Shown here: piece after piece, positions 924-18,727 of the stretch
How positions within the stretch are numbered: the first letter of the stretch is position 1
Layout: each line of letters begins with the position of its first letter
Assembly: GCF_025457605.1 (NCBI RefSeq)
Contig: NZ_JAMZFY010000001.1
Span: 1 to 64,000 of the forward strand
Length of the DNA stretch: 64,000 bases
Source: Haloarcula laminariae
Lineage (GTDB): Archaea; Halobacteriota; Halobacteria; Halobacteriales; Haloarculaceae
Direction of reading: 5' to 3'
Notes under the pieces: model-generated
Told to the model about the DNA's origin: nothing
Seen by the model: only the letters and a program-made list of their open reading frames with translations
The model's database searches: none
Position numbers and translations under genes: made by a program

Positions 924-1589
924 TTAGTGGTCGTGTAGCTGATCATTCGGCTTTCTACCACTCAGGAAAACCCGTCCGCTACCTGTCTGTTCTACAGTCT
1001 TCGTTCGCCCCTCCTTAGCGGTTCGAATAAATCCCTCTGACTCGAGACTATCAACATGGCGTGCAATGGTGCTTTTCGACTTCTCGAGCTCCGTAGCAAT
1101 ATTGCTGATAGACAACGGTGTGTCTAAGTCTGTTAGGTTCGCGAGCAACGTTGCTTCAGCGTCGGAGATATTACTTCGAAGATTCAAGAATGGAAGCCGA
1201 CGTACGCTACTGTCAATATCACCAACTTGAAGAACTGTATTAATATGGTTCTCGTTTGAGAACGTAGCAACCGTTAGCGGAAGAAGAATCTCTCGCGCCC
1301 CGCCACCGAGGATGACTATCGTTTCACCTTCTGCTGCTTGCATGAGGTCTGCGCAGAGAAGCGTCGTTTCGACAAAATCGGTATATGGGAGTCGCTCTGA
1401 CTCCAACTTGAGGTCCGGGACGACCTGCGTCAGAACGTCTTTCACCTCGTCAAAAGCTTCTTCACTCTGATCAGAACTATTCGCAGGTTGAAGGAGGATA
1501 ACGCGATCCGATTCATCTAATCCTTCGCTCAAGACCGGTTTTACAACACGCCTGCTGTCGAACCCGAGCGGTGCGAGGTACGTTCTCAT
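924..1589 (-). CDS. Csa3-like CARF-wHTH transcriptional regulator
   Basis: A 221-residue protein. The N-terminal half (about 1-125) opens with MRTYLAPLGFD, the typical first strand of Csa3-type CARF domains, and contains a glycine-rich turn (ILGGGAREI) expected of that ligand-binding Rossmann-like fold. The C-terminal half is a winged helix-turn-helix (about 140-205) with a clear recognition region (SISNIATELEKSKSTIARHVDSLESEG). I chose the ATG at 1587-1589 over the upstream ATG at 1649 because Csa3 proteins begin at this motif. CARF domains sense cyclic oligonucleotides in CRISPR systems, but no CRISPR array or cas gene is present here. The gene is divergent from the Dpd-like operon, with a perfect palindrome between them, which suggests it regulates that operon. 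Confidence 0.8.
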   Translation of the reverse strand: MRTYLAPLGFDSRRVVKPVLSEGLDESDRVILLQPANSSDQSEEAFDEVKDVLTQVVPDLKLESERLPYTDFVETTLLCADLMQAAEGETIVILGGGAREILLPLTVATFSNENHINTVLQVGDIDSSVRRLPFLNLRSNISDAEATLLANLTDLDTPLSISNIATELEKSKSTIARHVDSLESEGFIRTAKEGRTKTVEQTGSGRVFLSGRKPNDQLHDH

Positions 1590-1804
1590 GTATACAATTC
1601 CAATCCAGACTCTCGTTATTGTTCCGGAATTGCACAACAGTCGTCGCAACAGTGGGATGGAATACGCGGTTCAGAAGGATCTAATCAAGCATTTCCATAG
1701 ATGAACCATCTGAACTGTCCCAGATTAGTGCAAACGATGCGGAAATGTTTCACCGACGATAATTATTTGACTGCTGGCTAAAAATCGATGGGTGTTCGCC
1801 CATC

Positions 1805-1834
1805 TCGTACTAGTGGTGGCTACCACTAGTACGA
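1805..1834. promoter_or_regulatory. 13-bp perfect inverted repeat, candidate operator
   Basis: The arms TCGTACTAGTGGT and ACCACTAGTACGA are exact complements separated by four bases. The site lies between the divergent CARF regulator (start 1589) and the large plus-strand operon (start 1966). A second short palindrome, CCGTAGCTACGG, is at 1941-1952, just before the first operon start codon. A dimeric winged-helix protein such as the adjacent Csa3-like regulator would bind a site of this shape. That pairing is inference; a transcribed hairpin is the alternative. I see no gene elsewhere in 1590-1965. Confidence 0.5.
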
Positions 1835-1965
1835 AGAGACACGTCTCCATAATTATAATCTACCCGACAATTTTATGGTCTCGGGGATACGGATTCTTCA
1901 TAGAAGCACCACTGTGAGCAGGCTAGAGATGGCCTGTATCCCGTAGCTACGGCTATGGGAAATTG

Positions 1966-2898
1966 ATGCGAACGCAAGGCGTCACCCCATCCCACACAGA
2001 CGCCGCAAACAACCCAAGCACCCCCCAGGTGAATATGGACCCACCCGACTCAGAAACGCCAGCACTTGCGGACTTCATCGGAACACGAGATTCATTTCTC
2101 GTCATCCGAGACCCGCAACTCGCAAAGACTGGTTCCCAGGCCCGCGCACAACTCAGGTCACTGCCATTCCTCGCGCAGTTCGGCCTCCGCCACGTCGCCC
2201 ACCCCGGCATCTACGACAACGGGCTGCGACTGGTCGAATACGACCTCGTAGTAAACGAAACGCTACGAGAGAATGGAGTCGAGAATGTCGAATTCCCACT
2301 GGTTCACTACGTGAGCCAGGAAATGCTGACTGGTGAACTACAGGACGAAGACCGCAACTTCGATGAACAGGACGTCGTTCGGCGACTGCTCCGAGCGCGT
2401 CCAACTAACGCGACGTACGTACTCGTCACCGATACGAGTACTCCGAAGATGCCGCGGCTCACGAAGAAGCCCGGTAAGTCGTTCATCGACGAGTTTGAGT
2501 GCTCGGTCGCGGACTACAAGGGACTGCTGAAACGGTATCTCCAGTACAATCTCGACTCCGCGCTTCCACTGTCGACGACACAGAACCTGTACTTCCACCA
2601 GATCTCGGCGCACCACAACCGCGCTGGTGTAGAGGCTGGCTCCATCCCGGACCTGTTCGATTACACGCGTATTCCTGCGGACAGTCCTGCGTGGGACCCC
2701 CTCTACTACCTCATTCGCGAGGACGTCGACCAAGTGCTCGAGGATTACTCGGAACGCATCCGCGAAGCGCTTCGTTCGTGGACCGAACGCGGGCCGACCC
2801 AGAAAGTCGCCAACAGCATGCTGGACATGCTCGAGCGGGTGGACTTCGAGGAGGATCGACTCGACGACTATCGTTACCGTCACCAGAAGGACGCATGA
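1966..2898 (+). CDS. Uncharacterised first gene of Dpd-like operon
   Basis: A 310-residue soluble protein that I do not recognise. It has no zinc-binding cysteines, Walker motifs, membrane segments or obvious nuclease motif. The first 25 residues are low-complexity and rich in Thr, Pro and Asn, so translation could instead begin at the ATG at 2035. The next gene starts in an ATGA overlap (2895-2898), so the two are translationally coupled. It heads a seven-gene operon otherwise resembling the restriction part of bacterial dpd islands, so a role in that system is likely. Equivalence to a particular Dpd protein cannot be assigned from sequence reading alone. Confidence 0.7.
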   Translation: MRTQGVTPSHTDAANNPSTPQVNMDPPDSETPALADFIGTRDSFLVIRDPQLAKTGSQARAQLRSLPFLAQFGLRHVAHPGIYDNGLRLVEYDLVVNETLRENGVENVEFPLVHYVSQEMLTGELQDEDRNFDEQDVVRRLLRARPTNATYVLVTDTSTPKMPRLTKKPGKSFIDEFECSVADYKGLLKRYLQYNLDSALPLSTTQNLYFHQISAHHNRAGVEAGSIPDLFDYTRIPADSPAWDPLYYLIREDVDQVLEDYSERIREALRSWTERGPTQKVANSMLDMLERVDFEEDRLDDYRYRHQKDA

Positions 2899-3821
2899 GC
2901 ACGACGTACACACCGGCGAGTCACAAGCCGGACAAACTACTCACCGGGTTCATCTCGGTGCGAGCACCGGAACTCAAACACATCTACGCTTCGCTTCAAG
3001 CGGCGACGAGCGCGTCAGAGGTTACGCGCAAGTTCGGTCGGCCATCCGGCGGCGGCCTCCAAACGAACCACGTTGAGGATTCACTGCGCTTCCTGAACGC
3101 CGTCGACCTTGTCGAGAGTCCGACGCGTGATGTCATCGACACAGTTGAGCGAATCAACGACCGTCACTTCGAAGGGCTGGCCTTCGAGGCGCGCTTGCTG
3201 TACCACTGCAACCAGCAAGACGGTCGTCAAAGGCACTTTGCAGACGTCCATCGCGCGCTCCTGAGCGAGGGCAGTCGGACGGTGGATGCCGGTCGTGACA
3301 ACCTCCGAACGATCCTGAAACGAGAGACTGACTACGACTTCTCCTGGACCGACGAGAAAATCGATATGTGGGTCACGTTGGGCGAGCAGGTGGGGCTCAT
3401 CACCGAGACTGAGGACGGACTCGTCTTGAGTCCCTGCCGTGCGTTGCTGTACGACGCGCTCGCGCTCGCTCCAACCGATTCGAGTGCTGATCCCGACTAC
3501 GACGACCTCCCCGTGGATGACGGCGAGGTTCAGGAGATGTTCAACTGGATCAACGACAACCTGTTCACGGTCTACGAGGCCAGAACGGGCACCCCCAAGC
3601 TCCACCCCGCCATCACCGACGTACTTCGGAATATGGCAGAAGACGGCGTCGTCGACCTTTCAGCACCTGGAGATTCACAGAACGAAGTGAAGCTTCCTCC
3701 TGAAAACCTCAAGAAGGACAACCGCGGCAATCGGCAGGACGTGACGTACGTCTCGGTTCACTCCAAACCGAGCGAGACAGCTTACGAGTATCCCCTCGAC
3801 CAGCTCCTTACCCAACAATGA
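2895..3821 (+). CDS. DpdG-like protein of Dpd system
   Basis: A 308-residue protein with ATGA overlaps on both sides (2895-2898 and 3818-3821), so it is tightly coupled to its neighbours. Residues about 10-80 read as a helical, HTH-like region. The rest is acidic and mixed, without catalytic motifs I can name. It lies immediately before the DpdH-like ATPase, the position and approximate size of DpdG in bacterial dpd clusters, where dpdG-H-I-J-K are consecutive. The assignment rests on synteny and size, not on a recognised signature. I infer an accessory role in recognising or processing unmodified DNA. Confidence 0.55.
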   Translation: MSTTYTPASHKPDKLLTGFISVRAPELKHIYASLQAATSASEVTRKFGRPSGGGLQTNHVEDSLRFLNAVDLVESPTRDVIDTVERINDRHFEGLAFEARLLYHCNQQDGRQRHFADVHRALLSEGSRTVDAGRDNLRTILKRETDYDFSWTDEKIDMWVTLGEQVGLITETEDGLVLSPCRALLYDALALAPTDSSADPDYDDLPVDDGEVQEMFNWINDNLFTVYEARTGTPKLHPAITDVLRNMAEDGVVDLSAPGDSQNEVKLPPENLKKDNRGNRQDVTYVSVHSKPSETAYEYPLDQLLTQQ

Positions 3822-6800
3822 GCCAACACACTCCGAAATCGACCGCAGGCAACGAGATGCCTACCTATTGGGATGACCAGCAAGTCGATCACTTCATCAC
3901 GTCCGAAGCACACACAAAAAAGAAGACGCCAGAACAGTTCAAGGAGACCCACGTCGACATCGACCGGATTTACGCTGATAACCTGACTCCGCTCGGCGTA
4001 TCTGGCAAGTTCGTTACCCAGGAAGACGTCCTTAATGCGATCACGGCATCGAGCCTCGACGACCCGAACCGCATCTTCATCCTGCGTGGCGAACCGGGAT
4101 CTGGCAAGTCCCAACTCTGTGAGTGGACCAAGTATCAAATCAACGGCTACGGCGAGGACGACGAGGGGATTGAAGACCGGGTGGCGCTTCATGTGTCCCG
4201 CAGCCAGACCCGCATGGACCAGATTCTCGACATCCTGACCGAACCACTGGATGTCAACACTGATGTCCGCAACATTGACGACCTCGACCCCGACGACGCG
4301 GCCGCTGCAATCGTCGAGTACCTTCGCGGTATCTGGTCGACAGAACACCTTAGCGACGAAGAGATTCAAGAGCTTACGGAGGCTCGAGGAGATAAGAGCG
4401 ACCTTCGCAAAATCTTCGGGAAAAACATTCAGGAGTATCAAGAGGCCATTGAATCCCGTGATGGAAACCCAGAATTTAACCTCCTGACTCGGGCTGACTA
4501 CCGCGATCTTCGGTTACAGTTGACCTTCGGTAATAAGCTCACTGAGAATAAGGACGTGCTTTACTCGGTCCTCAAAAACGAAGCCCACGAGTACCTCTCT
4601 CGGAACCTCGTCGGCGATTTCAAAGAGTTACTCCAAGAATACTCGCAGCGGTATCAAGATCAGGGAATTCGACCAACTCTCATTTGCGAGGACCTCACAA
4701 CCTTCAGCGTCCTGAAGGAGCAACTCCTGGACCACATCTTCGAGCTCAGCAGTAGCAGCTACGACATCATTCTCGGGTGGACGATTGGCTGGGAGCAGGA
4801 TAATATTAATGACGCACTCACCCGGCAAAACGCTGCAGAGTACATGGAGGGGCGCTCACAGGGGAAGCTTACGATGAGCGATGAAGATACACATGAAGCG
4901 TACTTCCTCGATGACGACGCATCTGTTGCGCTCGCCCGATCGTACCTTGATGCAATCAAGCAAAATTCTGGTGCTGAGAGCGCTCCCGGAGATGTTGAGG
5001 AAGCGTTCGACGAACTCTACCCATTCAATGAGCGCTTCATTCACGTCGCATACAGGCAGCTGAATGATGGGGGAAGCAATCGGAAGACGCCGAGGCTATT
5101 ACTTCTGCGTGTAGTCAAACACTGTCTAAAATCAAGTTTACCGCCCTACGAGGCGATGAAGTCGAACTCGTTTGTCGATACCCCGACGTTCGAGATCGAC
5201 ATGAAGTACGACCAAATTTATCAGGACGTCAGCCGGTGGTACGGCGTCCCAGTTGATGATGGAATCGGAGTCCGGGTCCGTATCCTCGAAACCTTCGACA
5301 TTGATCTTCCCGACAGTGACAAAGCACCGGTCAAGGGCGACTACGTGGTCTTCGAGCGCGGGAGGGGGAGCGCTGTCATCGAGAAGATCAAGAACCCGCC
5401 GACGCCGGAACATGACGTCGATGAAGACGAGGAAACCGAAGAAGACGAGACCGAGAACACAGAAGCGGACGAAACTGAGGAAGACGAGGACGACGAAGTC
5501 GAAATCGTTGACGAACCTGAACTCACGGACGAACAGCGTGAGAGCCAGCAGAAGTTCCAGGAGTTCCAGAACTGGGTGACGAACGGGGAAGAATACCCAA
5601 GTTCGGACACGCTTCACGACGGGGCTGTCGCCACTCTGGAACGCTGGCACGAGCCCACGCGTCTCAGCAATCCCCACGCATCGACGCGTTCTGCGGGAAG
5701 TATTTACTACGCTCGCGGTGACAGCATCCCCGTCTCGATTCAGGGCGACCAACAGCGCCAGGCCAGCATCGACATCGAACTCGAATGTGAGTCGGATTAT
5801 GCTGACCTCTACACCAGTATGCTTGAGTACGGGCTCTTTGACGTGTTCGACCCCCAAACGACGGACTTCGACCAGCTTCGTGCGTGGGCGGATACGAACG
5901 TCGCTCAGTTCAAACGCGAGATGCGTGAGGAGGTTGAGGACTGTCTTCCGTCAGAGCTGAATATCGAGAAGACTCTGGTACTTGCTCAGTTCTTCCTGAT
6001 CAACGCGGCTCGCGGTGCCGAAATCGATGACGACGGGATTCCTGCAGACCTCGTTCTTGAGGAGTACGACAGTAATCAACCGTACGGTAAGCCGGTTTCC
6101 GAGCACTTCGATAGAGGTAGTGCGTTTGGACAGGCGTTCAGCGACCTGACGATGTCGTCCAGCGACATCAGCGACCTGATTGAGGGATTCTTCCTCCTCA
6201 AGTCGAACGTCGTGGACTACGAGCGTCTCTCGGAAGCACGGCGCGAGGTCGCGGACGACCTGCAAGCACACGTCGACGCGGCACTGATGATTGACACTGC
6301 CGACCTCGCGGACGCATACAGAGTTGGCACAACACGCAACAACGCGAATACCAAGCTATCCAGCCTGCTCGACCGAATTTCCGACTACGCCGCTGAACTC
6401 GACCGCCTTACCGCCGAGGAGAACGCCGCCCACATTCAGGAAGCACTCGAGCCGGTAGAACGCTGGTACGACAGCAGCCATACCGTTAACGACCTCGCCG
6501 AGTGGTTCGAGACGCTTGAAAACTGTCGAGGAACCTTTGATGGGAAAGATAAGAAAATTTATGAGAAGGCTCGTAACCTCCTCCATATCGAATCTGACGA
6601 ATCTCCGGAGAATATCAACCTTACCTCGTTTAGAGACGATGTTCAGAGGTTCCAGAACATGGAGGACACGACGGGAGTGACGCTCGTCGCCCGACTTCAC
6701 GACTTCGCGCGAAGTCAGCACGAGCAGGACGCCTGGGAGATTTACGAGGCGTTTGACTCACTCATCGACAATCTCCAAGAGGAAGAGCACGCGACCGGTG

Positions 6801-6892
6801 CAAACCTCGAACACCGCGTCAAGCAACTCAGCGAGTACAGCGACTACGAACAGAAACGCCAGAAGATTCTCTCCGTGACGGAGGGCCTGTAA
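3818..6892 (+). CDS. DpdH-like P-loop ATPase
   Basis: A 1024-residue protein. A clear Walker A motif GEPGSGKS lies at residues 91-98, and a Walker B-like strand (TLICEDLT) follows near residue 290. Residues about 530-575 form a very acidic Glu/Asp-rich linker separating the ATPase half from an all-helical C-terminal half. There is no helicase motif VI. Size, P-loop position and location between the DpdG-like and coiled-coil genes fit DpdH, an ATPase component of the 7-deazaguanine restriction module. The gene overlaps the previous stop by four bases and ends one base before the next ATG. ATP binding is well supported; the DpdH name is inferred from synteny. Confidence 0.7.
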   Translation: MSQHTPKSTAGNEMPTYWDDQQVDHFITSEAHTKKKTPEQFKETHVDIDRIYADNLTPLGVSGKFVTQEDVLNAITASSLDDPNRIFILRGEPGSGKSQLCEWTKYQINGYGEDDEGIEDRVALHVSRSQTRMDQILDILTEPLDVNTDVRNIDDLDPDDAAAAIVEYLRGIWSTEHLSDEEIQELTEARGDKSDLRKIFGKNIQEYQEAIESRDGNPEFNLLTRADYRDLRLQLTFGNKLTENKDVLYSVLKNEAHEYLSRNLVGDFKELLQEYSQRYQDQGIRPTLICEDLTTFSVLKEQLLDHIFELSSSSYDIILGWTIGWEQDNINDALTRQNAAEYMEGRSQGKLTMSDEDTHEAYFLDDDASVALARSYLDAIKQNSGAESAPGDVEEAFDELYPFNERFIHVAYRQLNDGGSNRKTPRLLLLRVVKHCLKSSLPPYEAMKSNSFVDTPTFEIDMKYDQIYQDVSRWYGVPVDDGIGVRVRILETFDIDLPDSDKAPVKGDYVVFERGRGSAVIEKIKNPPTPEHDVDEDEETEEDETENTEADETEEDEDDEVEIVDEPELTDEQRESQQKFQEFQNWVTNGEEYPSSDTLHDGAVATLERWHEPTRLSNPHASTRSAGSIYYARGDSIPVSIQGDQQRQASIDIELECESDYADLYTSMLEYGLFDVFDPQTTDFDQLRAWADTNVAQFKREMREEVEDCLPSELNIEKTLVLAQFFLINAARGAEIDDDGIPADLVLEEYDSNQPYGKPVSEHFDRGSAFGQAFSDLTMSSSDISDLIEGFFLLKSNVVDYERLSEARREVADDLQAHVDAALMIDTADLADAYRVGTTRNNANTKLSSLLDRISDYAAELDRLTAEENAAHIQEALEPVERWYDSSHTVNDLAEWFETLENCRGTFDGKDKKIYEKARNLLHIESDESPENINLTSFRDDVQRFQNMEDTTGVTLVARLHDFARSQHEQDAWEIYEAFDSLIDNLQEEEHATGANLEHRVKQLSEYSDYEQKRQKILSVTEGL

Positions 6893-6893
6893 G

Positions 6894-7718
6894 ATGTCTG
6901 GAACCCAATCTCTACCTGCGGCCGTTGACGCGCTCAAAGACAAGGCATTAGAACACAAACGAGGAGAGAACGCCAAATACACCATATCTGTCGCGCAGTA
7001 CAATATCAACGAAATCAACAGCGAACTCGATGACCTTGAAGAAGCGCTTCGAGACCTGCGGTACTACAAGACGGTTCTCGAGGAGGCATTCGATGGGTCG
7101 GCACCGACGATGCTTGGCAGTGCCGTTCAAACGGCCGAGAACGCGGTTGACGTCACGCAGGACGAGTTGCTGGGGAACGTCCAGAGGAGTGAAATGGCGG
7201 ACGAAGAGGTTTCTCTCGACCAGGATGACACTGAACCAGAAGTCGAGCTCACTCCCGAAGTCGAAACCCAGATCAGGCAGATTCGATCCGCAAAGCAGCA
7301 GGTTGAGAACGTCAGTGAGACTATTCAGGGGAAACTGGAGAGCAATAGAGACACCTGGAGTACGCGGGTCAGCGCCGCCGAGGAACTACAGAAAATTCTT
7401 GGCGGGCAGAACTCGGACTTCTCGCGCACGCTCAACCACATGCACCGACTTCTCACCCGGGACTTGATGGATTCCAGCGGGAGTGCCTCCAAGTTCGTGT
7501 CCGAGTGGGAGAACGCTACGGACAGTTGGGAGAAACACCAATCGCTCCAGAGCTTCGACGACTTCAAAGAGAAACACGATCTGTCGGATTCGACCATCGA
7601 GGACGTGAAGACGCTCAGCAAGTCCCAGCAGCTCACGCTAGCCGACGTTTCCACGGACACCCTTGAGGAGATGAAGCGCGTCGACGAACTAGAGTCGGCC
7701 GTAGAACTTAGCCTCTGA
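6894..7718 (+). CDS. Coiled-coil protein in DpdI position
   Basis: A 274-residue, highly acidic and mostly helical protein. Heptad-like stretches at about residues 35-75 and 120-165 suggest coiled coils. There are no cysteine clusters, catalytic motifs or membrane segments. It begins one base after the DpdH-like gene stops and ends two bases before the first helicase gene, so it is an integral operon member. In bacterial dpd clusters a small uncharacterised gene, dpdI, occupies this slot between dpdH and dpdJ. I infer a bridging subunit between ATPase and helicase; nothing in the sequence shows an enzymatic activity. Confidence 0.6.
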   Translation: MSGTQSLPAAVDALKDKALEHKRGENAKYTISVAQYNINEINSELDDLEEALRDLRYYKTVLEEAFDGSAPTMLGSAVQTAENAVDVTQDELLGNVQRSEMADEEVSLDQDDTEPEVELTPEVETQIRQIRSAKQQVENVSETIQGKLESNRDTWSTRVSAAEELQKILGGQNSDFSRTLNHMHRLLTRDLMDSSGSASKFVSEWENATDSWEKHQSLQSFDDFKEKHDLSDSTIEDVKTLSKSQQLTLADVSTDTLEEMKRVDELESAVELSL

Positions 7719-7720
7719 CA

Positions 7721-10700
7721 ATGAAGGACCCCGCCGCCCGCGCGGAACAGATGCAAGCGGCCTACCGCGACTATTTCATCGGTCGCGGGGGGCGCGCCGC
7801 TCGCAGCGTAGCGCACCGGTTAGCCGACGGTGAGAGCGATGTCACAGGAATGCGTGGGCCGTTCCTGCAAGCGCTTGATATCCCGAACTGGAGTGACCGT
7901 TCGTGGGATACCTTCGCCAGGTCGGCGCATCTGGAACCCCACATCCGACGAGCGTTCTCGGAGATCGGGTTCGAGAGGCTTTACGACTTCCAGGAGCGGA
8001 GTATCGAGTCGATACTCGACGGTGACGACACGGTAATCACTGCCGCGACGGGGCGGGGGAAGACTGAGGCGTGGCTCATTCCGATTCTCAACCGGATCCT
8101 CGAAGCGAAGCGTCAGGAAGAGGATGAGGGAGACGACACGAGCGTCAAGGCAACGCTCATCTACCCGACGAAGGCCCTGGCGCAAGACCAGTTGAAGCGC
8201 CTCCTTCAGTACCTCTACCTCATCAATAAGCAGCTGAAGTCGTCGCAACGCATCTCAGTTGGTATCTACGACGGGGACACGCCCCGCGACGTGAGCGAGT
8301 CCGGTGCGGAGGGCTACCTCAATTCCACGTTCAAGCACTTCGAATGTCCGGGGTACAATCCCGAACTCGACAAGTGCCAGGACTGCGGTGGTGGTGTTCG
8401 CGTCAGAAACACCGGCTCCCGATTCAAACTTATCCCGGAGAAAGCCCACTGTGAAGAAGACGAGCCGAACGATGTGCCGTTGGACTTCCTTCGGCTGACT
8501 AGGTACGACATCCTCGAAAACGGCGTTGACATCGTCCTCACGAACCCCGACACGATCAACTACCGACTCATCAACACCAACGCTGAGGACGAACACCAGC
8601 GGTTCATCTACGAACCCGAGTTCCTCGTGTTCGACGAGGTTCACACGTACGACGGCTTGTTCGGGAGTTACACATCGACGTTGATGAAGCGCGTACAGGC
8701 GCTGCGAGAGAACCGGGGCGTCGACGACCTGCAACTCATCGCGAGCAGCGCAACCGTCGAGAACGACGTCGAGCTCTTCCAGAAAGTCAGCGGCGCCGTT
8801 GACGTCACACAAGTAAGCGAGTCGCCTCGCGAACTCGACGCCACGGTGCCATTATCTGTCCCAGAAGAGTTTACGTCACACCGTCTGTCCGTCGACCGCA
8901 TTCTGCGTGCGACGGGAACGCCCGACGACACTGTTCCGGGGTTAGACGCATTCGATTACACGCTTGAGGAGGCATCGAGTTACGACCGCGATCGCCGGGA
9001 GACACTGGTCGCCGATGCCCTCTTCGACCATCTGACTGGAACTCACGACGACCCCGGCGTGCAGGTGGTACAGTACGTCCACCAATTGCTCTACGACGAC
9101 CCGCTGACCCGCTCGGAACTGCACGAGCAGTTGGCCGAGACCTTCGCCCTCGATGAGTCCGGTGTCGAGACGCTGGTGGAGAACGTCCGCACGCTCGGTG
9201 AGTTCTCTGGAATTCTGGAGAACCGCAGTCACATGTTCTCCTGGCCGATCGACGGGTTCTACGCGTGTGCAGCGTGCGAAACCGTCTATCGCTCACCGCA
9301 GGATTCCTGCCGGGAGTGCGGATTCGAGTTCGTCACTCGCTCCACGTACTGTCGCTATTGCAGCGACGAACACCTCGTCACCTGGTACTGCCCCGAGTGC
9401 GACCAACTGGAGTCGTACACGCCCACCGAACACGGATCGGTCGGACAAGACGAGGACCACGTTTGTACTCGGTGTGAGAGGGTTCGCGACGATGCGGTAC
9501 AGATGGTTCGTGTCACGTTCCAGCCTTTCCTGGAGTGCCAGGAATGCAACCATCGGGTGGAACGGACCACCATCGCTGAGTGTTCCGACTGCGGGTCCCG
9601 TACTGTCAGGACCGATTCCGAGACGACCACCTGTATCAATCCACAGTGTGGGAGTACCCAAACAGTCGAACAGGCCTGTGATCGGTGTGAGGGCTCTGTG
9701 TTCGAGGTTTCCAGCGTCGAAGGACGATTCGATTGCCCCGAATGTGGCACTACGTACGACCGGCCCGAAGATGCTCCCGAGCGTTGTCGCGAGTGTGACT
9801 CACCACTCGAGTCGACACGATACCTACCGTGGGTGTGTGCGAGCGACAACTGCGACCGAATCCACTTCCAAGACGCTCCCGACCAGTGTCAGTGTGGATC
9901 GTCGTCGTTCGTGAAACGGGGGCTGTTCGAGATCCAGCACGACCAGCACTGCCGGTCGTGTGACACCGCATTCGTTGAGGAAGACGGATGCGGCTGCGAC
10001 AACCCGGACGTCCACCAGAGAACGGGGTCTCATCGAGCGTACAAAACGCTCGACACACACGGGAGAATCCATTCGATGAGCTCTCAAGGATCGGCAGTTC
10101 CGTGCCCACACCCGTACGCTCGCTACGAAATTGGAAGTCGGTTCGACGAGATGATGCGCAGCCCGAACAACCTGGCGGCGACGACATCACAGTACCTGAT
10201 GCGTGCGGTCGCTGACGACGAGGGACAACAAGCTGCTAAACTCCTCTCGTTCGCGGACTCCCACCGCGACATGAAGGAACTCAGTAGGGACTTCTCCGAG
10301 CCCGAGACCGAGACGCTACTGGACCAACTGCTCGTCCGTGGTGCAGCGAACGACGGTTCGTCCTCGTGGGTATCATTCGACGATGTCCTCGAGTACGCCG
10401 ACGAATCCATTGATAGCCTCAACGAGTCGCTTGAACCGCCACGAGTGGCTAGGAACGTCGAATTCGATCTGAAATCGCGTCTCAAGGACCAACCTCGTAA
10501 GCGGTGGGACGACGATGATGCGCTGCACGGCCGGCTCACACGGCGTGCACTATCGCACACTTACAGTCAGCGTCTCGGGGAACGTGACGACCCCCTCTCG
10601 GAAGTCGGTCTACTCGACGTACGGTTCGCTCCCGGGCTGGATGCCCTTTCTGGTGACGAACGGGCAATTGTCCGCGAACTCGTCGACGAGGGGAACGATT

Positions 10701-13249
10701 ACCGTGTGGCGAACTTCGAAAGTCCCAGCCCGAGTAGAGAGGTCACTGAGGTGGTTGCCGATCTCGTCGAACGGGGTATTCTCACGTACGGCCACTCCGA
10801 CAAGTACGTCTCGTTCGACCCGTCTGCGATCGAAGTCACCGTTGCTGGTGAGGGGGACAGCATCGCTTTCGATCCCGAAACAGAGCGGTACTACACGACA
10901 CTCGAGCACCAATTCGGCCTCGATAGTCAATCGGCAGTTCCGTCGAACGCGACCCTGGCGGAGCTCGCTTCCGTGTCGCATCCGCGCTTCACACAGCGTG
11001 CCCACCGGGTAGAATACTCACAGACCCGCATCTTGGTTTCCGAGGAGTATCTCGGGACGACAGAGAAGCGAAAGCGCCGCGAACTCGAGTTCCTCTTCCG
11101 CGAAGAGAACTATCCACACCACCTCTCGTCCGGGCCGACGATGGAACTCGGCGTCGACATCGGCTCGCTCGACGCGCTGTTGCTGTACGGGACGCCACCC
11201 AACATGAACGCGTACCTCCAGCGTGTCGGGCGTGCTGGGCGTAGCTCTCACTCGTCGCTGGTTCATTCTGTGAGCCAGCGCAATCCGATTGACTACTACT
11301 ACTACGACCATCCAGAGGATCTCATCTCGGCCGAACCGACGCCGGTGCCACTCAACGAGCACAACGAAGAGGTCCTACGCGTCTCGCTTTCGTGGGCCGT
11401 CTTCGACTTTGTGGCAGCCAACTTCTCGATCCCGTGGGACGTCAGCCGCCACGGTCGTTCCCGCTCGATCGACGGTGGCGACACCTACCACCAGCGAAGC
11501 ACACTCGAGGAGAGTGAACGAGAGGACGCGAGCAAGCTGACTCACGTTATGTCACTCGCCGCTGACACGCTATCACTCGGGAGCGATGATTCACAACTCG
11601 CGGTACTGAGCGAAGTGGTGTCCGACCACGAGCCAGAGATCAGGGACTACCTCGAGTCGCTGCTAGAGTACCAGTATTGCGAGGACTGTGAGCGCCGGTA
11701 CGCGGCCGACGACGAACGAACCACCTGCGAGCGAGCGGACTGCGACGGCCACATCCGACACGCGAGAGCGCAGTTCGGGCACCTCGTCGAGGACGCAATC
11801 TCGAACTTCGACGACCGATACATCACGCACTATCAGGAGTATCAGGAGTCGCTGGAGACTGAGCGCGTATCGCTCTCCGAACGAGACCGCGACCTACGGC
11901 GCGACCAGCAGCGTGCGAGTGCGGACGAGCGCGGTCGCATTATGCGTGAGCGCCGCGGGCTCCAGGAACGCATGGAAGTCCTCAAAGAGCACCTCTCCGA
12001 CTTGGGCGAAGAGAGTTACTTCGATTTCCTCCGGGAGTCCCGCGAGAGCAAGTACGATTTCTCGATGCGAAGTGTCGCCACCACTGCTGGTCTAACGCTG
12101 GTCGATGAGGGGTACGACCGACGCAACATCGGAGACCAATCGAGCGGTAGGGCGATGCGGATGGCGCTATCTGAGCTTCACCCAGGTGCGGCGTACCTCG
12201 ACAACGGTGAGACCTACACTGTCGCCCGGGTTCGTTTCGACGAAAAGGCGGGTTCTGACTTACGAGAATCCGTCACCGATGCGAACATCGACGACCACCT
12301 CGCGGATGAACTTGTCTGCCCGGCGTGCCATTCAACTCACGATCTTGATGCGACCGACTGTGACTGTGAGAACGATGTACCGTTGAAACGACGCCAACTC
12401 GCCGTTCTCGATTCTGCCGACGCGTATCACGACAATCTCCAACTGACTTCTGAGGGCGATGAGGCGCGTTACCTGCACAACGAACCCAATCAGGCAGTGC
12501 AGAACACCTACGCCGAACGCGAGACCTCGATCCTCTCGTTCGATACCAGACAGACGTACGAGCTACGAACAGACAAAGGAGACGTACTTGGAACGCTCGA
12601 ATACGGTGATTACTCAGTCCTCTTGTACACAGATGGATATCGTACGAAGTACAAATCGGGCGAGGTCGACGCACAAGAGTCACATTTCGAAGTCTGCGGC
12701 GAGGAGAACTGTCACGGCGTAATCTACGAGGACGACGATGAGACACGTCGGTGTAGTGCAGACCCCGATCATTTCCCCGAAGGGAGAGGAGCAGACTCGC
12801 AATTCGTCAGACTTGGCTACCAATACGAGACGCAGGGTGTACGCGTCGAACTGGAGGACCGCGAACTATCCCACACACTGGCGCACGGCCTCCGGGTCGC
12901 TCTCCAGTACCTCGGCGGCGTCAACATCCGTGAGCTCTCCGAGTACGTCGGAGAAGATCACGTCGATGTCTTCGAGTCGCAAGAGGGTGGATCGGACGTC
13001 GCACGACTGCTCTTCGAGCAGTCCGACGGCGACTTCCGCGCCTTCGCCCGAGCAGTCGGTCTTATGGATGACCAGTTCGACTGCGACTGTGACAATGGCT
13101 GTCCGTCCTGTCTGTACCAGTACGGGTGCGATGTCCGGAACGACCAGCGGTCCTTCGACCGCGACCGCCTCCAGGCCAAGTTGGACGGACAGGAGTTGTC
13201 GATTCATCCAGTCGACAACCGAGGCGTGAACGAACAGTTGACTGACTAA
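7721..13249 (+). CDS. DpdJ-like giant helicase, copy 1 (DEVH box, DUF1998-type C-terminus)
   Basis: A 1842-residue superfamily 2 helicase. Residues 111-116 are GRGKTE (Walker A) and 305-308 are DEVH (Walker B, motif II). SSATV (motif III) follows, and motif VI QRVGRAGR starts at 1167. Between the two RecA cores (about 510-780) lie many CxxC pairs, consistent with several zinc ribbons. The C-terminus has a DUF1998-type domain ending in a four-cysteine cluster (CDCDNGC...CLYQYGC, about 1787-1802), as in MrfA-like and DrmB-related proteins. Its place before a paralogous helicase and a PLD gene fits DpdJ. It probably translocates on or unwinds DNA during restriction. Helicase identity is certain; the DpdJ role is inferred from neighbours. 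Confidence 0.85.
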   Translation: MKDPAARAEQMQAAYRDYFIGRGGRAARSVAHRLADGESDVTGMRGPFLQALDIPNWSDRSWDTFARSAHLEPHIRRAFSEIGFERLYDFQERSIESILDGDDTVITAATGRGKTEAWLIPILNRILEAKRQEEDEGDDTSVKATLIYPTKALAQDQLKRLLQYLYLINKQLKSSQRISVGIYDGDTPRDVSESGAEGYLNSTFKHFECPGYNPELDKCQDCGGGVRVRNTGSRFKLIPEKAHCEEDEPNDVPLDFLRLTRYDILENGVDIVLTNPDTINYRLINTNAEDEHQRFIYEPEFLVFDEVHTYDGLFGSYTSTLMKRVQALRENRGVDDLQLIASSATVENDVELFQKVSGAVDVTQVSESPRELDATVPLSVPEEFTSHRLSVDRILRATGTPDDTVPGLDAFDYTLEEASSYDRDRRETLVADALFDHLTGTHDDPGVQVVQYVHQLLYDDPLTRSELHEQLAETFALDESGVETLVENVRTLGEFSGILENRSHMFSWPIDGFYACAACETVYRSPQDSCRECGFEFVTRSTYCRYCSDEHLVTWYCPECDQLESYTPTEHGSVGQDEDHVCTRCERVRDDAVQMVRVTFQPFLECQECNHRVERTTIAECSDCGSRTVRTDSETTTCINPQCGSTQTVEQACDRCEGSVFEVSSVEGRFDCPECGTTYDRPEDAPERCRECDSPLESTRYLPWVCASDNCDRIHFQDAPDQCQCGSSSFVKRGLFEIQHDQHCRSCDTAFVEEDGCGCDNPDVHQRTGSHRAYKTLDTHGRIHSMSSQGSAVPCPHPYARYEIGSRFDEMMRSPNNLAATTSQYLMRAVADDEGQQAAKLLSFADSHRDMKELSRDFSEPETETLLDQLLVRGAANDGSSSWVSFDDVLEYADESIDSLNESLEPPRVARNVEFDLKSRLKDQPRKRWDDDDALHGRLTRRALSHTYSQRLGERDDPLSEVGLLDVRFAPGLDALSGDERAIVRELVDEGNDYRVANFESPSPSREVTEVVADLVERGILTYGHSDKYVSFDPSAIEVTVAGEGDSIAFDPETERYYTTLEHQFGLDSQSAVPSNATLAELASVSHPRFTQRAHRVEYSQTRILVSEEYLGTTEKRKRRELEFLFREENYPHHLSSGPTMELGVDIGSLDALLLYGTPPNMNAYLQRVGRAGRSSHSSLVHSVSQRNPIDYYYYDHPEDLISAEPTPVPLNEHNEEVLRVSLSWAVFDFVAANFSIPWDVSRHGRSRSIDGGDTYHQRSTLEESEREDASKLTHVMSLAADTLSLGSDDSQLAVLSEVVSDHEPEIRDYLESLLEYQYCEDCERRYAADDERTTCERADCDGHIRHARAQFGHLVEDAISNFDDRYITHYQEYQESLETERVSLSERDRDLRRDQQRASADERGRIMRERRGLQERMEVLKEHLSDLGEESYFDFLRESRESKYDFSMRSVATTAGLTLVDEGYDRRNIGDQSSGRAMRMALSELHPGAAYLDNGETYTVARVRFDEKAGSDLRESVTDANIDDHLADELVCPACHSTHDLDATDCDCENDVPLKRRQLAVLDSADAYHDNLQLTSEGDEARYLHNEPNQAVQNTYAERETSILSFDTRQTYELRTDKGDVLGTLEYGDYSVLLYTDGYRTKYKSGEVDAQESHFEVCGEENCHGVIYEDDDETRRCSADPDHFPEGRGADSQFVRLGYQYETQGVRVELEDRELSHTLAHGLRVALQYLGGVNIRELSEYVGEDHVDVFESQEGGSDVARLLFEQSDGDFRAFARAVGLMDDQFDCDCDNGCPSCLYQYGCDVRNDQRSFDRDRLQAKLDGQELSIHPVDNRGVNEQLTD

Positions 13250-13273
13250 CTACATCCCACAGGAAACCCACCG

Positions 13274-16200
13274 ATGGAATTCGACCCCATAGAACTCGCC
13301 GACACGATGCGTGAATCGTACGCCGAACACTACGCCGGTTCGCAACCCTCGCCGGCGGTCAAGAGCCTCGTCTCCCGCTACCACGGTGGGGCCGGAGAGT
13401 CTCTGGAGAATGACCTTCCCGAGTTCATCCGAACGAAGGGACCCTACCTTCAGGTGCTCGACCTCCCCCGAATGAGTGACACGTCGTGGGAGACCTTCGC
13501 TGACAACCATGACCTGCATTCGGACGTCACGGAAACGTTTAGTGAGGCAGGATTCCGAAACCTCTTCGAATTTCAGGAGGACTCCATCGAGGCGGTTCGC
13601 GAAGACCATCATACGCTGTTAACCGCAGCGACCGGGAGGGGGAAGACAGAGGGTTGGCTAATTCCGATTCTCCAGTTCATCTGTGAGGCGAAAGCAGGCC
13701 AGCACGACGCGCATCCGCCGGATAGCGTCAAATGCGTTCTCACGTACCCAACGAAAGCTCTGGCACAAGACCAGCTGAAGCGCCTCATCGACTACCTGTT
13801 CACGCTCAATCGAGACCGATCAGCGGACGACCAGATTACGGTGGGGATCTACGACGGGGACACGAAACGCCGCGATCCCGACGAACTAGCGTACCTCCAG
13901 ACGACGTTCCAGTATTTCGACTGTCCGTGTGGAGAGTGTGACTCTTCGTTGACTGTTCGGCGTCGCTCGGACGACTCGTTCGTCGTCGAACCGATGGCAG
14001 AACACGATGAGGATCTCACGTTCGACTTTATCAAAGTCACTAGGGATGCCATCGTCGAGAGTCCAGCTGACATCCTGCTGACGAACCCGGATACGATCAA
14101 CTACCGGCTGTTCAACGTTAATGCGGACGAAGCGCAGCAACGGTTCGTCGCCGAGCCGAAATACTTCGTCTTCGACGAGATTCACGAGTATTCCGAGCTT
14201 TTCGGTTCGTTCACTTCGGCGTTGATGCGGCGGTACATCCGGGAACGACAGGAACTCAACGACTACGACAGCGAGGGTGACGACGATCTCACCATCGTTG
14301 GTGCGAGTGCCACCGTCGAGAACAAGCTCTCCGTCTTCCAGCGCATTAACCCGTTCGTCGACCCCGACATCGAGGTGGTTGAGGAAGAAGGACGCACAAT
14401 CGACGCTCCCTTCCCCAGCTACGTCCCTGACGAATTCACTACCACTGAACTGGCAAGCGACGAGTTGCGTGCCGGAGAGACTGAGACTGCGAAACTCGTT
14501 CTAAAAGCAGCGGGTATCCACGACTCCAGCGGAGGGGTGGACGTAGAGAGCGACCTCTACGAACACCTCGTAGAAGGCGACAGCGAAGTGCTGGAGTTCG
14601 TTCGCGGCATCTACTCAGCTCTTCGAGAGAAACCGCTTCGGCCTGACGGCCTACGCGATCAACTCGTCGAATCAGCCAATCTAACCGAGGAACAGGCGGA
14701 CACGGTGGTGTCGAATTTCATGACGATTGGTGACGTGTCCGGAATTCTGGAGCGCCGTGCCCATCTGTTCAGTTGGCCCCTCGACGGCTACTACTCCTGT
14801 ATCAACTGTGGGACGGTCTACGATACCCCGCAGTCGGCTTGTGCCGAATGCGGACACCACTACGTGACGAAACTCTCACTGTGTAACCAGTGCGGTGAGG
14901 AGTCACTCGAGTCGTGGTTCTGTCCGAACTGCGAACGGCTCGAGCCACATACTGTGACCTCAGAAGAGGGACGGTTCGATTACTTCTCGCGACGCGAGTG
15001 CCAGTGCGAAACGCCCGACGGCGAAACGCCCGAGATGATCCGCGTCTACTGGCGGCCGTTCTACGAATGTTCCGAATGTGGTGAGCGCCAGAAGATCGAC
15101 CACCAGCAGGACTGTTCGACGTGTGGTTCCTCGATGGTACTCGACGACTCGATGGAAACTCACATCTGCTCGAACCCAGACTGTGGCGAGGAAGTCACAG
15201 TTGAGGAGGCACGGGAGCCGACCTGCCATTCTTGTGACACTGAGGCGTTGGAACCCCTGACAGACGACAGCGTCCAGTACTGTACTGAGTGTGGGGAGAT
15301 ATACGAAGACCCCGACGTACAGGAGTGTACGGCCGAAGACTGTGATGGCAATCTCACACCGAAGCGTTTGCTTGGATGGACTTGCGGCGACCCGGATTGT
15401 GACGAAGTGTACTTTGGCCGATCCCCGAACACCTGCACCTGCGGAAATCGACGGTTCGTCCGGACCGCGTTGTTCGACATCCAGATGGTCGACGAGTGCA
15501 CGTCCTGCGAGCACGAGTTCCTCCCTGGTGGTCGACAGGACTGCAGTTGTGACGATCCAGAAATCGTGACACGGGCAAAAGGATACAGCAACTTCCGGAT
15601 GGTCGATGACGACGGTCGGATTCGGGAGTCGAGCCAGTTCCCCGGTGGTCTCCCCTGTTACCATCAGGACCAACGGGAAACCTACTCTAAGAACGGCAGA
15701 TACGACGCGATGTTGCGGGGCCCGGCTAACGCAGCGGTGACGACAGGACGGTACCTGCTGCGGTCGCTCGCTGACCGAGACAACCCGGAGTCCTTCACCG
15801 AATCCAAGATGCTCTCGTTCGCGGATAGCCAGTCCGACATGAAAGAACTGGAGCGCAACTTTCGTGAACCCGAAGAGGCGTTCTTCTTTGACCAGTTATT
15901 CGTCAGCAGCGTCAGGAATGAGGCCGACGCTTCAGGATGGGGGACTCTCGCGGACATCGTCGACTGTGGCGTAGCTGAGGCAAAGCAGTACGAGGAGGAC
16001 CTCGAAGGGGAAACCAATAACCCACCGAATGCGTTCGAATTCCTCACTAACTACGACCAGTCAGTCGACGAGTATCTGACGGAAGAACTGTTGTCCAGAA
16101 TCTTCGCTGGACAGTACAGCGAACGCTACCGGAGTAAGCAACTCACTGACGAGGGGATCGTCGACGTCCGTCTAAATGCCGACACCGACGATCTCGAACC

Positions 16201-18727
16201 GGGAGAACTGGAGCTTCTCGCTGAGTGTATTGCACAGAACCATCGGTACGAACCTCACCTCATCGACGATGTTGAGGACGGTCATAGCCACCTCGATTTA
16301 CTGATCAACCGGGGCCTGGTACGTCGGGTCGAAGAAGACGGTAGCCGGTACGTGATGGTCGAGGAGGACACAATTGAATGTGCAGTCGTCGATGAAGCGA
16401 CGCCAACGTACTATAGTCCAAGTCAAGAGGACTTCGTCACGAGCCTCGAGTCAACGCTGGCCGACGTTCCTGACGACATCGTCGAATTCGACTCGAAGCC
16501 AGAGGACCGTTCGACGTTCTCGCATCCTCACTTCTCTCTGACGGCACAGCAGATAACTACGTCCGATCCTATGATGCTCCTCGCGAGGGCGTACTATGGT
16601 GAGACGGACCGAGACGAACGGCGAGAGTTGGAATACCAGTTCAGGCAGGGGCGGTTCCCTCACTTCCTGTCCTCGGGACCGGCGATGGAACTCGGCGTCG
16701 ACATCGGCGACCTCAACACGTTGCTCCTCTACGGTACGCCCCCGAATGCGAACTCCTACCTCCAGCGCATCGGACGTGCCGGGCGGGAGTCTGGGAGTTC
16801 ACTCGTGCACTCCGTCAGTCAGCGAAACCCGATCGATTACTACTATCACGAGCATCCCGAGGAACTCATCGCGTCCGACCCACAGCAAGTCCCACTCAAC
16901 GAAGTGAACCGTGAGGTCCTCCACCAGTCCCTCACATGGGGGATTCTCGACTGGGTAGCGACGACACAGTGGGTTCCCTGGCGACGAGACCAGAGTGGGC
17001 TCGACGAATTTGTTGTCTGTAAAGACGCTCCGTCTCCACGGTCCGAATCCAAGCCCAACGATCTACTGCGATTTACTAGCGTTCTGTCGTCGTCGAACTT
17101 CCAAGTACAGAATCAGAGCGACGACGCCCCACTGGAAGTGCTGCGTTCGGTCATCAACGAGAATCAAGACGAGATTGAACAGTGGCTGCAGAATCTGGTT
17201 TCTTTCGGTGTTTGCTCAAGCTGTGGCCGTAAACACGAAGACGGATACAAAGGTGAATGTCAGAGGGACAGCTGTAGCGGTTCAGTTGAATCGGTCTTAG
17301 ACGAGTACGACGCCGTCGAAGGAGCACTACGGGGAACTGACGATCATCGTGGCATCGAAGCGTCGATTATCGACCTCTACAACGCTCAACGAGACGCGAT
17401 TGACGCTGATCTGGAGGAACTTGACGAAGAGATCGCTGATGTCCGGAGCAAAGAACGACGCACTCGAGACCGCGAAGAAAAACGCACACTCCGCGAACAG
17501 AAGCAGCAACTTCGTCGGCGCGCTGATCAGTTAGACGACTATCTGCGAAGACTTGAGGACATGGACTTCGGCCAGTACCTCAACCGCGAGAGTCCGACGG
17601 CGTTCGGTTTGCGGTCTGTGGGTGATTCGGTCGATTATCAACTTGTCGGCGAGGAGTTCGAAAACGTCAGTGACGGTTCTCGGGACCGTCGTATCGCACT
17701 CTCCGAGCTTCACCCAGGGGCAGCGTACCTCCACAGCGGTGAGACGTACGTCGTGACGCGCACGGAGTGGGAGCCACTAGAAACCGCTCGTATCAGCGAA
17801 CAATTCCAGGACGCGGCTATCTGCCCGACATGTGCTGCGGAGTACGACACTGATACGTCTCACTGCGAGTCGTGCGGTTCACGGCTAAAGCGACTAGTGA
17901 CGAAAGTGCCTGAACGCGTGACTGCGTTCCAGCACGATTTGCCGTTGGGAATAACGCCCAACGCTCGTGAGCTTGAGCCGTCGAGTGTGTATCAAGCTGA
18001 CGAGGAAGTGCAGAGCACGTATGCGCCGGTCGAAACCGATGCAGGTGACTCGTTCGAACCTACGATATCATACGACATCGTCGACGAAAGCGGGAACGTA
18101 CACGGTCAGTTCGAGTACGGTAACGTGACGATCGCCGCCTCGACGAGCAAATACTGGGCGACGTACAAGAACGGTGGTTCAGACCCTTTACCGAACGTAT
18201 TCGAGGTCTGTGGTATTGAAGGATGCAACGGCATGATTGCCAACGTGGGGGAGTCCGCAGTCTGTACGAACAACGTGGAACATCCCGTGGACGAAAGTAT
18301 CGCAGTGCGTCCCGCCACCAAGTTCGACACCAAGGCCGCTCGTGTTCGGTTCGACAGCGAGGAACTTGAGCACGGGTTCGCTCACGGACTGCGAGTGGCA
18401 CTCCAATACATCGGCGGGGTAAGCGTTCGCCAAGTTCCTGAATCGATCGAAGAGGAAGGCACCTTAGTGTACGACTCGGACGAGGGGGGAAGTGGAATCA
18501 CCGTACTCCTCACACAGGATGACGGTCAGAAGTTCGAGAGAGCGGTCGAGATAATGCACGATGCGTTCTCTCCCGAGGAGTCGGAGTGTAACTGTGAGGA
18601 CGGGTGCCCGTTCTGTCTCTATCAGTACGGCTGTTCCGAGCAGAATGACCCTGACTCGTTCGACAAGGACGAGCTACTCGAACTGCTTTCGCACGATCTC
18701 CATCTGGAAGCGAGGAACGATGACTGA
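13274..18727 (+). CDS. DpdJ-like giant helicase, copy 2 (DEIH box, DUF1998-type C-terminus)
   Basis: A 1817-residue paralogue of the preceding helicase with the same layout. The N-terminal segment is followed by a Walker A GRGKTE near residues 121-126 and DEIH at 301-304. A cysteine-rich zinc-ribbon region follows (about 505-770), then QRIGRAGR from about 1164, a Glu/Arg-rich coiled-coil insertion (about 1370-1440), and a DUF1998-type C-terminus with the final cluster CNCEDGC...CLYQYGC. Both ATPase cores look intact, so neither copy is an obvious pseudogene. The gene starts 24 bases after copy 1 and its stop overlaps the next start. The pair may act as a heterodimer or handle opposite strands; this is inference. 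Confidence 0.85.
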   Translation: MEFDPIELADTMRESYAEHYAGSQPSPAVKSLVSRYHGGAGESLENDLPEFIRTKGPYLQVLDLPRMSDTSWETFADNHDLHSDVTETFSEAGFRNLFEFQEDSIEAVREDHHTLLTAATGRGKTEGWLIPILQFICEAKAGQHDAHPPDSVKCVLTYPTKALAQDQLKRLIDYLFTLNRDRSADDQITVGIYDGDTKRRDPDELAYLQTTFQYFDCPCGECDSSLTVRRRSDDSFVVEPMAEHDEDLTFDFIKVTRDAIVESPADILLTNPDTINYRLFNVNADEAQQRFVAEPKYFVFDEIHEYSELFGSFTSALMRRYIRERQELNDYDSEGDDDLTIVGASATVENKLSVFQRINPFVDPDIEVVEEEGRTIDAPFPSYVPDEFTTTELASDELRAGETETAKLVLKAAGIHDSSGGVDVESDLYEHLVEGDSEVLEFVRGIYSALREKPLRPDGLRDQLVESANLTEEQADTVVSNFMTIGDVSGILERRAHLFSWPLDGYYSCINCGTVYDTPQSACAECGHHYVTKLSLCNQCGEESLESWFCPNCERLEPHTVTSEEGRFDYFSRRECQCETPDGETPEMIRVYWRPFYECSECGERQKIDHQQDCSTCGSSMVLDDSMETHICSNPDCGEEVTVEEAREPTCHSCDTEALEPLTDDSVQYCTECGEIYEDPDVQECTAEDCDGNLTPKRLLGWTCGDPDCDEVYFGRSPNTCTCGNRRFVRTALFDIQMVDECTSCEHEFLPGGRQDCSCDDPEIVTRAKGYSNFRMVDDDGRIRESSQFPGGLPCYHQDQRETYSKNGRYDAMLRGPANAAVTTGRYLLRSLADRDNPESFTESKMLSFADSQSDMKELERNFREPEEAFFFDQLFVSSVRNEADASGWGTLADIVDCGVAEAKQYEEDLEGETNNPPNAFEFLTNYDQSVDEYLTEELLSRIFAGQYSERYRSKQLTDEGIVDVRLNADTDDLEPGELELLAECIAQNHRYEPHLIDDVEDGHSHLDLLINRGLVRRVEEDGSRYVMVEEDTIECAVVDEATPTYYSPSQEDFVTSLESTLADVPDDIVEFDSKPEDRSTFSHPHFSLTAQQITTSDPMMLLARAYYGETDRDERRELEYQFRQGRFPHFLSSGPAMELGVDIGDLNTLLLYGTPPNANSYLQRIGRAGRESGSSLVHSVSQRNPIDYYYHEHPEELIASDPQQVPLNEVNREVLHQSLTWGILDWVATTQWVPWRRDQSGLDEFVVCKDAPSPRSESKPNDLLRFTSVLSSSNFQVQNQSDDAPLEVLRSVINENQDEIEQWLQNLVSFGVCSSCGRKHEDGYKGECQRDSCSGSVESVLDEYDAVEGALRGTDDHRGIEASIIDLYNAQRDAIDADLEELDEEIADVRSKERRTRDREEKRTLREQKQQLRRRADQLDDYLRRLEDMDFGQYLNRESPTAFGLRSVGDSVDYQLVGEEFENVSDGSRDRRIALSELHPGAAYLHSGETYVVTRTEWEPLETARISEQFQDAAICPTCAAEYDTDTSHCESCGSRLKRLVTKVPERVTAFQHDLPLGITPNARELEPSSVYQADEEVQSTYAPVETDAGDSFEPTISYDIVDESGNVHGQFEYGNVTIAASTSKYWATYKNGGSDPLPNVFEVCGIEGCNGMIANVGESAVCTNNVEHPVDESIAVRPATKFDTKAARVRFDSEELEHGFAHGLRVALQYIGGVSVRQVPESIEEEGTLVYDSDEGGSGITVLLTQDDGQKFERAVEIMHDAFSPEESECNCEDGCPFCLYQYGCSEQNDPDSFDKDELLELLSHDLHLEARNDD

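Follow-up and report, generated by a model that had tools for sequence, protein, structure and literature searches.

The CARF-wHTH protein encoded at the beginning of the window, by which we mean the whole 64-kb stretch of Haloarcula laminariae DNA that was analysed, is likely to be a local, ligand-sensing regulator that governs its own gene as well as the restriction arm of a BRIGADE-like island and that is kin to the regulators of type I-D CRISPR systems. In the model that we propose, the protein would be a dedicated transcription regulator of the helicase/PLD restriction arm of a BRIGADE-type, Dpd-like island, and its sister lineage, related to it by descent, would regulate type I-D CRISPR-cas in other haloarchaea. 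A dimer of the regulator would bind one candidate operator, O1, near its own promoter and another, O2, about 16 bp upstream of a P1-like box before the helicase operon, and this placement would bring the regulator gene and the restriction genes, not the modification genes, under control. The protein is presumed to repress its own gene from O1 and to activate the operon from O2. The binding of a ligand would switch the regulator, and in its own genome this ligand would come from a source other than a type III CRISPR system.

The regulator and the island

The regulator gene (924–1589, minus strand; 221 aa) is identified by profiles, by the alignment of its relatives and by a structure model. Its start is ATG 1589 and not TTG 1649 of the longer ORF; the alignment of the full-length relatives begins at Met 1589. 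The original prediction that the protein is Csa3-like is borne out by Pfam (Csa3_N, 55.2 bits with a cut-off of 27), by NCBIfam (TIGR01884, 'CARF protein Csa3', 84.5 bits with a cut-off of 60.2), by PADLOC (CARF3--CARF, 290.6 bits) and by an AlphaFold2 model with a mean pLDDT of 90.0. The top matches of the model in the PDB are the Csa3 structures 2wte, 6wxq and 6w11 (Z of 17.6–18.6 over 197–208 residues), the superposition on 2wte having a Z of 18.6 over 208 residues, with an rmsd of 3.7 and 18% identity. As had also been claimed, the gene diverges from the helicase operon with a palindrome in between (arms 1805–1817 and 1822–1834), no CRISPR array is found in the 64-kb window by a simple scan, and no cas gene is found among the subset of the window's ORFs that was scanned.

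The divergent operon consists of seven genes on the plus strand (about 2035–20699). The first one, of an unknown family (2035–2898), probably starts at ATG 2035 and not at TTG 1963: an ATG is present at this position in all 11 relatives of alignment A4, the Salinigranum orthologue is annotated with the corresponding start, and the frame-breaking indels among relatives upstream of it imply that the region 1966–2034 is not coding. Genes 2–4 (2895–7718), identified as ORFs and by profiles, encode proteins of 308 aa, 1024 aa and 274 aa, the 1024-aa AAA-type protein having a weak match to DpdH (7.5e-6) in its N-terminal part only. They are followed by the genes of two large DEAD-box helicases of 1842 and 1817 aa (7721–18727), which are related to DruE, DpdJ and DrmA and which both have DruE as the best match in PADLOC, and by that of a PLD-type nuclease of 712 aa (18561–20699), which is DrmC-like and is matched by PLDc_2 with an E-value of 7.4e-6 and 26.3 bits, just below the cut-off of 27. 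The 7-deazaguanine arm lies at 25736–29811 on the plus strand and comprises a DpdA-like transglycosylase fused to a DpdC/DUF6884-like part (252 bits with the DpdA profile) and a second TGT-like protein (93 bits with the TGT profile). A gene for an IS1595-type transposase (24407–25291) separates the dpdA-like gene from the helicase operon.

This predicted gene layout fits BRIGADE type II, a label given by resemblance. According to the available text of the preprint of Bell et al. (PMC12458937), that type occurs in haloarchaea and combines a pair of YprA helicases of the ARMADA/Druantia kind with a PLD or PD-D/E-xK nuclease nearby and with genes for 7-deazaguanine modification. Genes of the last kind are present here, and the helicases and the nuclease of the window resemble the other components; the helicases are described in the preprint as nearly identical, whereas the two in the window are 37% identical to each other. 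The main text of the preprint contains 'CARF' twice, one of the two in the reference list, and 'Csa3' nowhere; no CARF regulator is named in the portion consulted.

Two genomic contexts of one regulator family

Relatives of the regulator were collected by protein search of 146 genomes of the family, of plasmids and of named genomes, and their surroundings were classed by tblastn. After twelve loci that repeat the same places had been removed, 47 distinct full-length relatives were counted with the window included, 18 of them divergent from the helicase operon and 29 beside type I-D cas6. The arrangement being kept in 18 distinct loci, the proposal that a non-CRISPR defence island has a CARF-wHTH regulator of its own is supported. 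In the regulator tree the two contexts lie on the two sides of one branch, which amounts to a single change of context, the support of that branch being only 75/61.

Loci without a match to the start of the protein (L033, L051, L053, L054, L055 and L094) were left out of these counts. Among them, L094 adjoins cas6 and L033 is a fragment on a plasmid of Haloferax mediterranei. L051, L054 and L055 are partial CARF3-like genes, matching without the N-terminus, that have housekeeping-type neighbours, with no match to cas6 or to the helicase operon and no defence system recognised nearby; thus degraded or short copies of the regulator are also met in a third context. Two further observations concern the CRISPR side of the family. 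In the type I-D locus of Halorubrum lacusprofundi pHLAC01 (L063, 8001–8374) the regulator matches over its first 119–121 residues only and adjoins an annotated ISH6-like transposase. A CARF/cas6 locus of haloarchaeal type was met on a 5.4-kb contig labelled as a Spirochaetaceae MAG (L077), which is probably misbinned.

The second TGT of the island is present in 20/20 genomes or records with the regulator-helicase arrangement. At E <= 1e-100 it is found in 17 of the 146 family genomes, in seven of which (G000, G037, G039, G040, G053, G114 and G131, where G039 and G040 show the same contig) an intact regulator stands beside the helicase operon. In three genomes (G088, G002 and G020) the helicase operon is present but the regulator is missing, and in G142 (locus L053, 9200–12600) an insertion that carries IS66 and DDE transposase genes interrupts the CARF gene after about codon 62. 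These three operons and the one interrupted copy show that the regulator is dispensable, which counts against the model proposed above. In G075 and G017, where DpdA and the TGT are 94–98% identical to those of the window, the helicase operon was not found in the stretches covered, except for a partial match of 28–29%. The pattern suggests that the regulator and the helicase operon form a cassette that can be exchanged while the modification arm stays in place. It is noted that in G020 an archaeal TFB-like gene (L114, 12353–13438), so read by eye from a zinc ribbon and a cyclin-like part, replaces the CARF gene before the helicase operon.

Candidate operators O1 and O2

An unbiased search for palindromic motifs in the first 130 bp upstream of the regulator, made over 41 non-redundant relatives from which six more over-similar loci had been left out for this search only, gives a ACTGTTGCAC-n4-GTGCAACAGT-like dyad with a width of 24 and an LLR of 301.6, compared with 44.3, 48.2 and 48.8 in three shuffles. 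In the window the dyad is represented by O1 (1618–1641, ATTGTTCCGGAATTGCACAACAGT), which starts 29 bp upstream of the CARF start codon, and by O2 (1714–1737, ACTGTCCCAGATTAGTGCAAACGA), a conserved block that is the second site in relatives. Both dyads stand out as conserved when 11 close intergenic regions are aligned. They are also the two top-scoring sites of the whole window, O1 ranking first and O2 second, and the corresponding two sites rank at the top in a Salinigranum stretch of 40.6 kb, which implies that the modification genes have no comparable site there.

The motif was trained separately on the 25 CRISPR loci and on the 16 helicase loci. The CRISPR loci alone give AcggTTgCA-n6-TGcAAccgT and the helicase loci alone give ACTGTTgCacaattgtGcAACAGT, with the same core. 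With the CRISPR-trained model the best site falls at O1 or O2 in 16/16 helicase loci, and in 14/16 of these the score of that site is reached by no more than 5 of 200 shuffles; the sites are not significant in L093 (87/200 shuffles as high) and in L056 (36/200). The helicase-trained model is weaker on the CRISPR loci, with low scores in several of them, e.g. L081, L083, L049 and L052. A second site at +123 to +134 occurs in 9/9 close helicase relatives tested (Fisher p 4e-13), and the CRISPR loci, taken together, have a second site as well (Fisher p 1e-16). In seven more distant helicase loci it is absent (Fisher p 0.07), so that operon control via O2 may be a feature of the close group alone. 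The helicase operons without a CARF gene (G088, G002 and G020) have no operator site in the 450 bp upstream, with maxima of 1.0, 3.2 and −0.3 bits versus 20.0–26.4 bits in 14/16 operons with a CARF gene, a comparison that uses a model partly trained on the same sequences, only the cross-scoring between contexts being independent. Judged from this conservation, it is the O1/O2-type dyad, not the 13-bp palindrome, that the regulator probably binds.

The placement of the sites can also be read in another way. The regulator could work without a ligand, as a timer comparable to the controller (C) proteins of restriction-modification systems, with the CARF fold serving only for dimerisation: the CARF protein would build up after the arrival of the island, and restriction would be switched on once modification protects the host DNA. 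This reading, which we regard as unlikely, explains the site placement equally well as a ligand-switched regulator does, since the candidate operators are found only at the regulator and the restriction operon and not at the modification genes. The C boxes are the point of comparison here, and the O1/O2 pair with its self-regulation resembles them. It is at odds, by contrast, with the sister group, which regulates CRISPR systems that have no modification arm.

The 13-bp palindrome

The perfect inverted repeat between the two divergent units (1805–1834) has two arms of 13 bp separated by 4 nt; a search of the window for exact or near-exact copies of the motif gives this one occurrence only. Four perfect inverted repeats with arms of at least 13 and loops of at most 10 exist in the 64 kb, versus none in each of 40 dinucleotide shuffles. 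The palindrome is not unusual for the window, because the other three (24720–24756, 46835–46868 and 47389–47421) have longer arms of 14–15 bp.

The palindrome had been suggested as the binding site of the regulator, and this suggestion is not supported. Its segment is among the least conserved ones in the alignment of the 11 close intergenic regions, and its sequence is not kept in the relatives, where O1 and O2 are conserved in both place and sequence. One might still suppose that it is an operator which in each lineage changes rapidly in step with the protein. Its perfect arms above chance would agree with such a supposition, as would the fact that close relatives have an inverted repeat or a hairpin in the corresponding position, but even in the Haloarcula vallismortis copy (L065), where the protein is 84% identical to that of the window and O1 and O2 are kept, the palindromes share little sequence, and in L068/L069 the element has shrunk to a segment of 17 nt with a 5-bp stem. 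We therefore give the supposition hardly any credence, the least of all the readings considered here.

What the close relatives have at this position are inverted repeats of different sequence. The folding of the segment relative to dinucleotide shuffles has z values from −5.3 to −0.2, combining to −8.4 over nine sequences and to a Stouffer z of −7.0 without the window, where the borders of the segment were set after the palindrome had been seen; one of the eight relatives used, L071, has no excess stability. Elsewhere the z of sliding windows ranges from −3.5 to +2.6, except for two windows over the leader RNA described below (−8.2 and −5.2). That a hairpin persists while its sequence changes suggests a role as a structure, formed by RNA or by extruded DNA, and speaks less for a sequence that a protein binds. 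With the promoters placed as follows, the hairpin would lie between P1 and P2 and hence near the 5' end of the P1 transcript.

Putative promoters and leader RNA of the helicase operon

Two putative promoters of the helicase operon are located on the plus strand. The distal one, P1, is a CGATAATTAT block (1754–1767) that is conserved in 11 relatives, is about 16 bp downstream of O2 and resembles the sequence upstream of cas6 in L035; its direction and its activity are predicted ones. The proximal one, P2, is the block ACCCGACAATTTTAT (1862–1876), whose TTTA columns are invariant in 11 relatives and which would act as a promoter on that ground.

Downstream of P2, a structured leader RNA (about 1900–2035, plus strand) is indicated by covariation in the 11 close relatives. 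It consists of hairpins at 1919–1936, 1940–1959 and 1978–2004, the last one with the invariant loop ATCCCAC, and RNAalifold gives a possible extra stem that encloses the first two. Changes on both sides occur in 7/19 pairs, and the pairing or the covariation is matched by 0/500 shuffles. Relative to shuffles, the folding has a z of −4.26 on the plus strand and of 0.19 on the minus strand. Rfam contains no family that matches the intergenic region at E <= 1. When the leader model, R1, was run over 42 sources, the 11 strong matches were exactly the 11 sequences from which it had been built, with one further match at chance level (13.9 bits); over 20 genomes it gives one strong match in each of the 9 that hold the close group and two other weak ones of 20.0 and 18.0 bits. 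The confinement of the matches to the close group indicates that the leader is a cis element of the helicase operon and not a widespread family.

The putative ligand pocket and the source of a signal

CARF proteins are usually regarded as receptors of the messengers of type III CRISPR systems. On the basis of such a role, it had been proposed that the island is induced by cyclic oligoadenylate that a type III CRISPR system makes elsewhere in the cell, acting through the 13-bp palindrome. The regulator is a true relative of Csa3, and Csa3 of S. solfataricus binds cA4, as stated in the part of PMC8844856 available to us; these facts are in line with the proposal. Motif 2 (small-small-G-hydrophobic-R), the cA4-binding pattern as defined for Csa3 in the same part of that paper, is present as GGGAR at residues 95–99. 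In motif 1, L8, G9, F10 and D11 agree with Csa3, but position 14 is Arg and not the Phe of the cA4-binding Csa3. As the Phe is a property proposed for cA4 binding and is not used by the family profiles, the Arg lowers the claim of cA4 binding and leaves the profile-based membership of the family unaffected.

The source of such a signal was looked for in the genome of the window (G000), which is 99.5% complete in 9 contigs. The Cas10 palm domain PF22335 has no match there, Cas10d is not found by protein search, Cas1 is not found either, and the Csm1 profile TIGR02578 gave only a match of 19.4 bits, which is far from the cut-off of 170 and covers only positions 4–88 of 753. The Cas10d search covered 14 genomes and had no positive control within the run, the same query finding Cas10d in type I-D loci by local tblastn. 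Over 37 genomes, PF22335 matches in 1/14 of the helicase context and 3/23 of the type I-D context, 33/37 thus having no Cas10. Three of the four Cas10-positive genomes are Halocatena by name and the fourth belongs to the same genus group; GGDD is present in two of the four matched loci and lacking in the other two. G151 (Halocatena marina), which has the helicase arrangement and a Cas10 with GGDD, speaks for the proposal. Cas10d of the type I-D loci is without GGDD in 7/7. As far as the searches reach, a source of cyclic oligoadenylate appears to be missing in most of the genomes that carry the regulator. A type III CRISPR signal for this regulator is unlikely, and the whole proposal, which would moreover require a palindrome whose sequence is not conserved, is in our view highly improbable.

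The residues G9, G96, G97, R99 and D124 are unchanged in 26/26 regulator sequences that span both contexts, which argues for a bound ligand. The pocket thus keeps a phosphate-binding motif and, as far as can be judged from residues, the regulator is probably switched by a small nucleotide-like ligand; the candidates are c-di-AMP, an infection-borne nucleotide or none. The last case corresponds to the controller-like timing device, in favour of which it can be said that no cyclase was found and that cA4 was without effect on the DNA binding of S. solfataricus Csa3 in both of two published studies, as seen in the available parts of PMC8844856 and PMC8699464, the binding itself being specific in one of them and non-specific in the other; these results also count against the model proposed above. 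The invariance of G96, G97, R99 and D124 in both contexts speaks against it. A CD-NTase (SMODS) was considered as the missing cyclase and rejected, there being none in the genome of the window and matches above the cut-off in 2/14 genomes. The c-di-AMP synthase family is present in 14/14 genomes of the helicase context.

On our preferred reading of a local, ligand-switched regulator, one may speculate further, although with considerable doubt, that the ligand is a non-CRISPR second messenger, such as c-di-AMP or an infection-borne nucleotide, that would link a shared alarm signal to the two unrelated systems type I-D CRISPR and BRIGADE via one operator, with the leader RNA adding a second control at the RNA level.

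Relation to known regulators

The closest structural counterpart is Csa3a of Saccharolobus solfataricus (2WTE, 6WXQ and 6W11). The two proteins share the CARF domain and the C-terminal wHTH over the full length, and the Gly and Arg of motif 2 as well as Gly9, Phe10 and Asp11 of motif 1 are kept. A palindromic candidate operator upstream of a promoter is also comparable with CAPPa of Sulfolobales, which, in the text of PMC8699464 at hand, is an 18-bp palindrome 12 bp upstream of BRE/TATA. Unlike Csa3a, the regulator here has Arg for Phe at position 14 of motif 1, its neighbours are not CRISPR genes, and its genome has no type I or type III CRISPR match in the searches made.

The Csa3-type regulators of type I-D systems, e.g. 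those of Natribaculum luteum (L035) and Halorussus pelagicus (L060), have 33–41% identity to the present one, the divergent layout and the same operator motif, in many of them at about +34 from the regulator start. They differ in that they drive cas6-cas10d and not the helicase operon, and in that the second site, where found, lies 30–50 bp from the first, versus about 96 bp here. MM_0565 of Methanosarcina mazei is likewise a CARF-wHTH protein with targets outside its own CRISPR locus, acting on the casposon cas1; it is, however, encoded beside a type I-B CRISPR locus, and a distinct binding motif was not found by its authors, as far as the consulted portion of PMC7465815 reports.

Csa3 regulators and their binding of cA4 were already known (PMC8844856 and PMC8699464), and the control of other defence systems by CARF proteins had been predicted earlier (PMC4012209), to go by the accessible sections of these papers. 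Within the literature searched, supplements aside and some sources being available in part, neither a CARF or Csa3 regulator of a Dpd/BRIGADE island nor the O1/O2 operator was found. The present analysis ties one Csa3-type lineage to two defence systems by a common operator, most of the genomes being without Cas10, and it makes testable what Csa3-type regulators sense where the Cas10 cyclase is missing. For a class of haloarchaeal defence islands whose control was not found described in the same literature, within its limits, it also offers a regulator together with a candidate operator.

Finally, we note that the window contains two similar palindromes 34 bp apart, ACCATTTCG...CGAAATGG at 53036–53059 and ACCATTTCG...AGAAATGG at 53070–53093, which may be operator sites for a different regulator close to the ORF at 53267.
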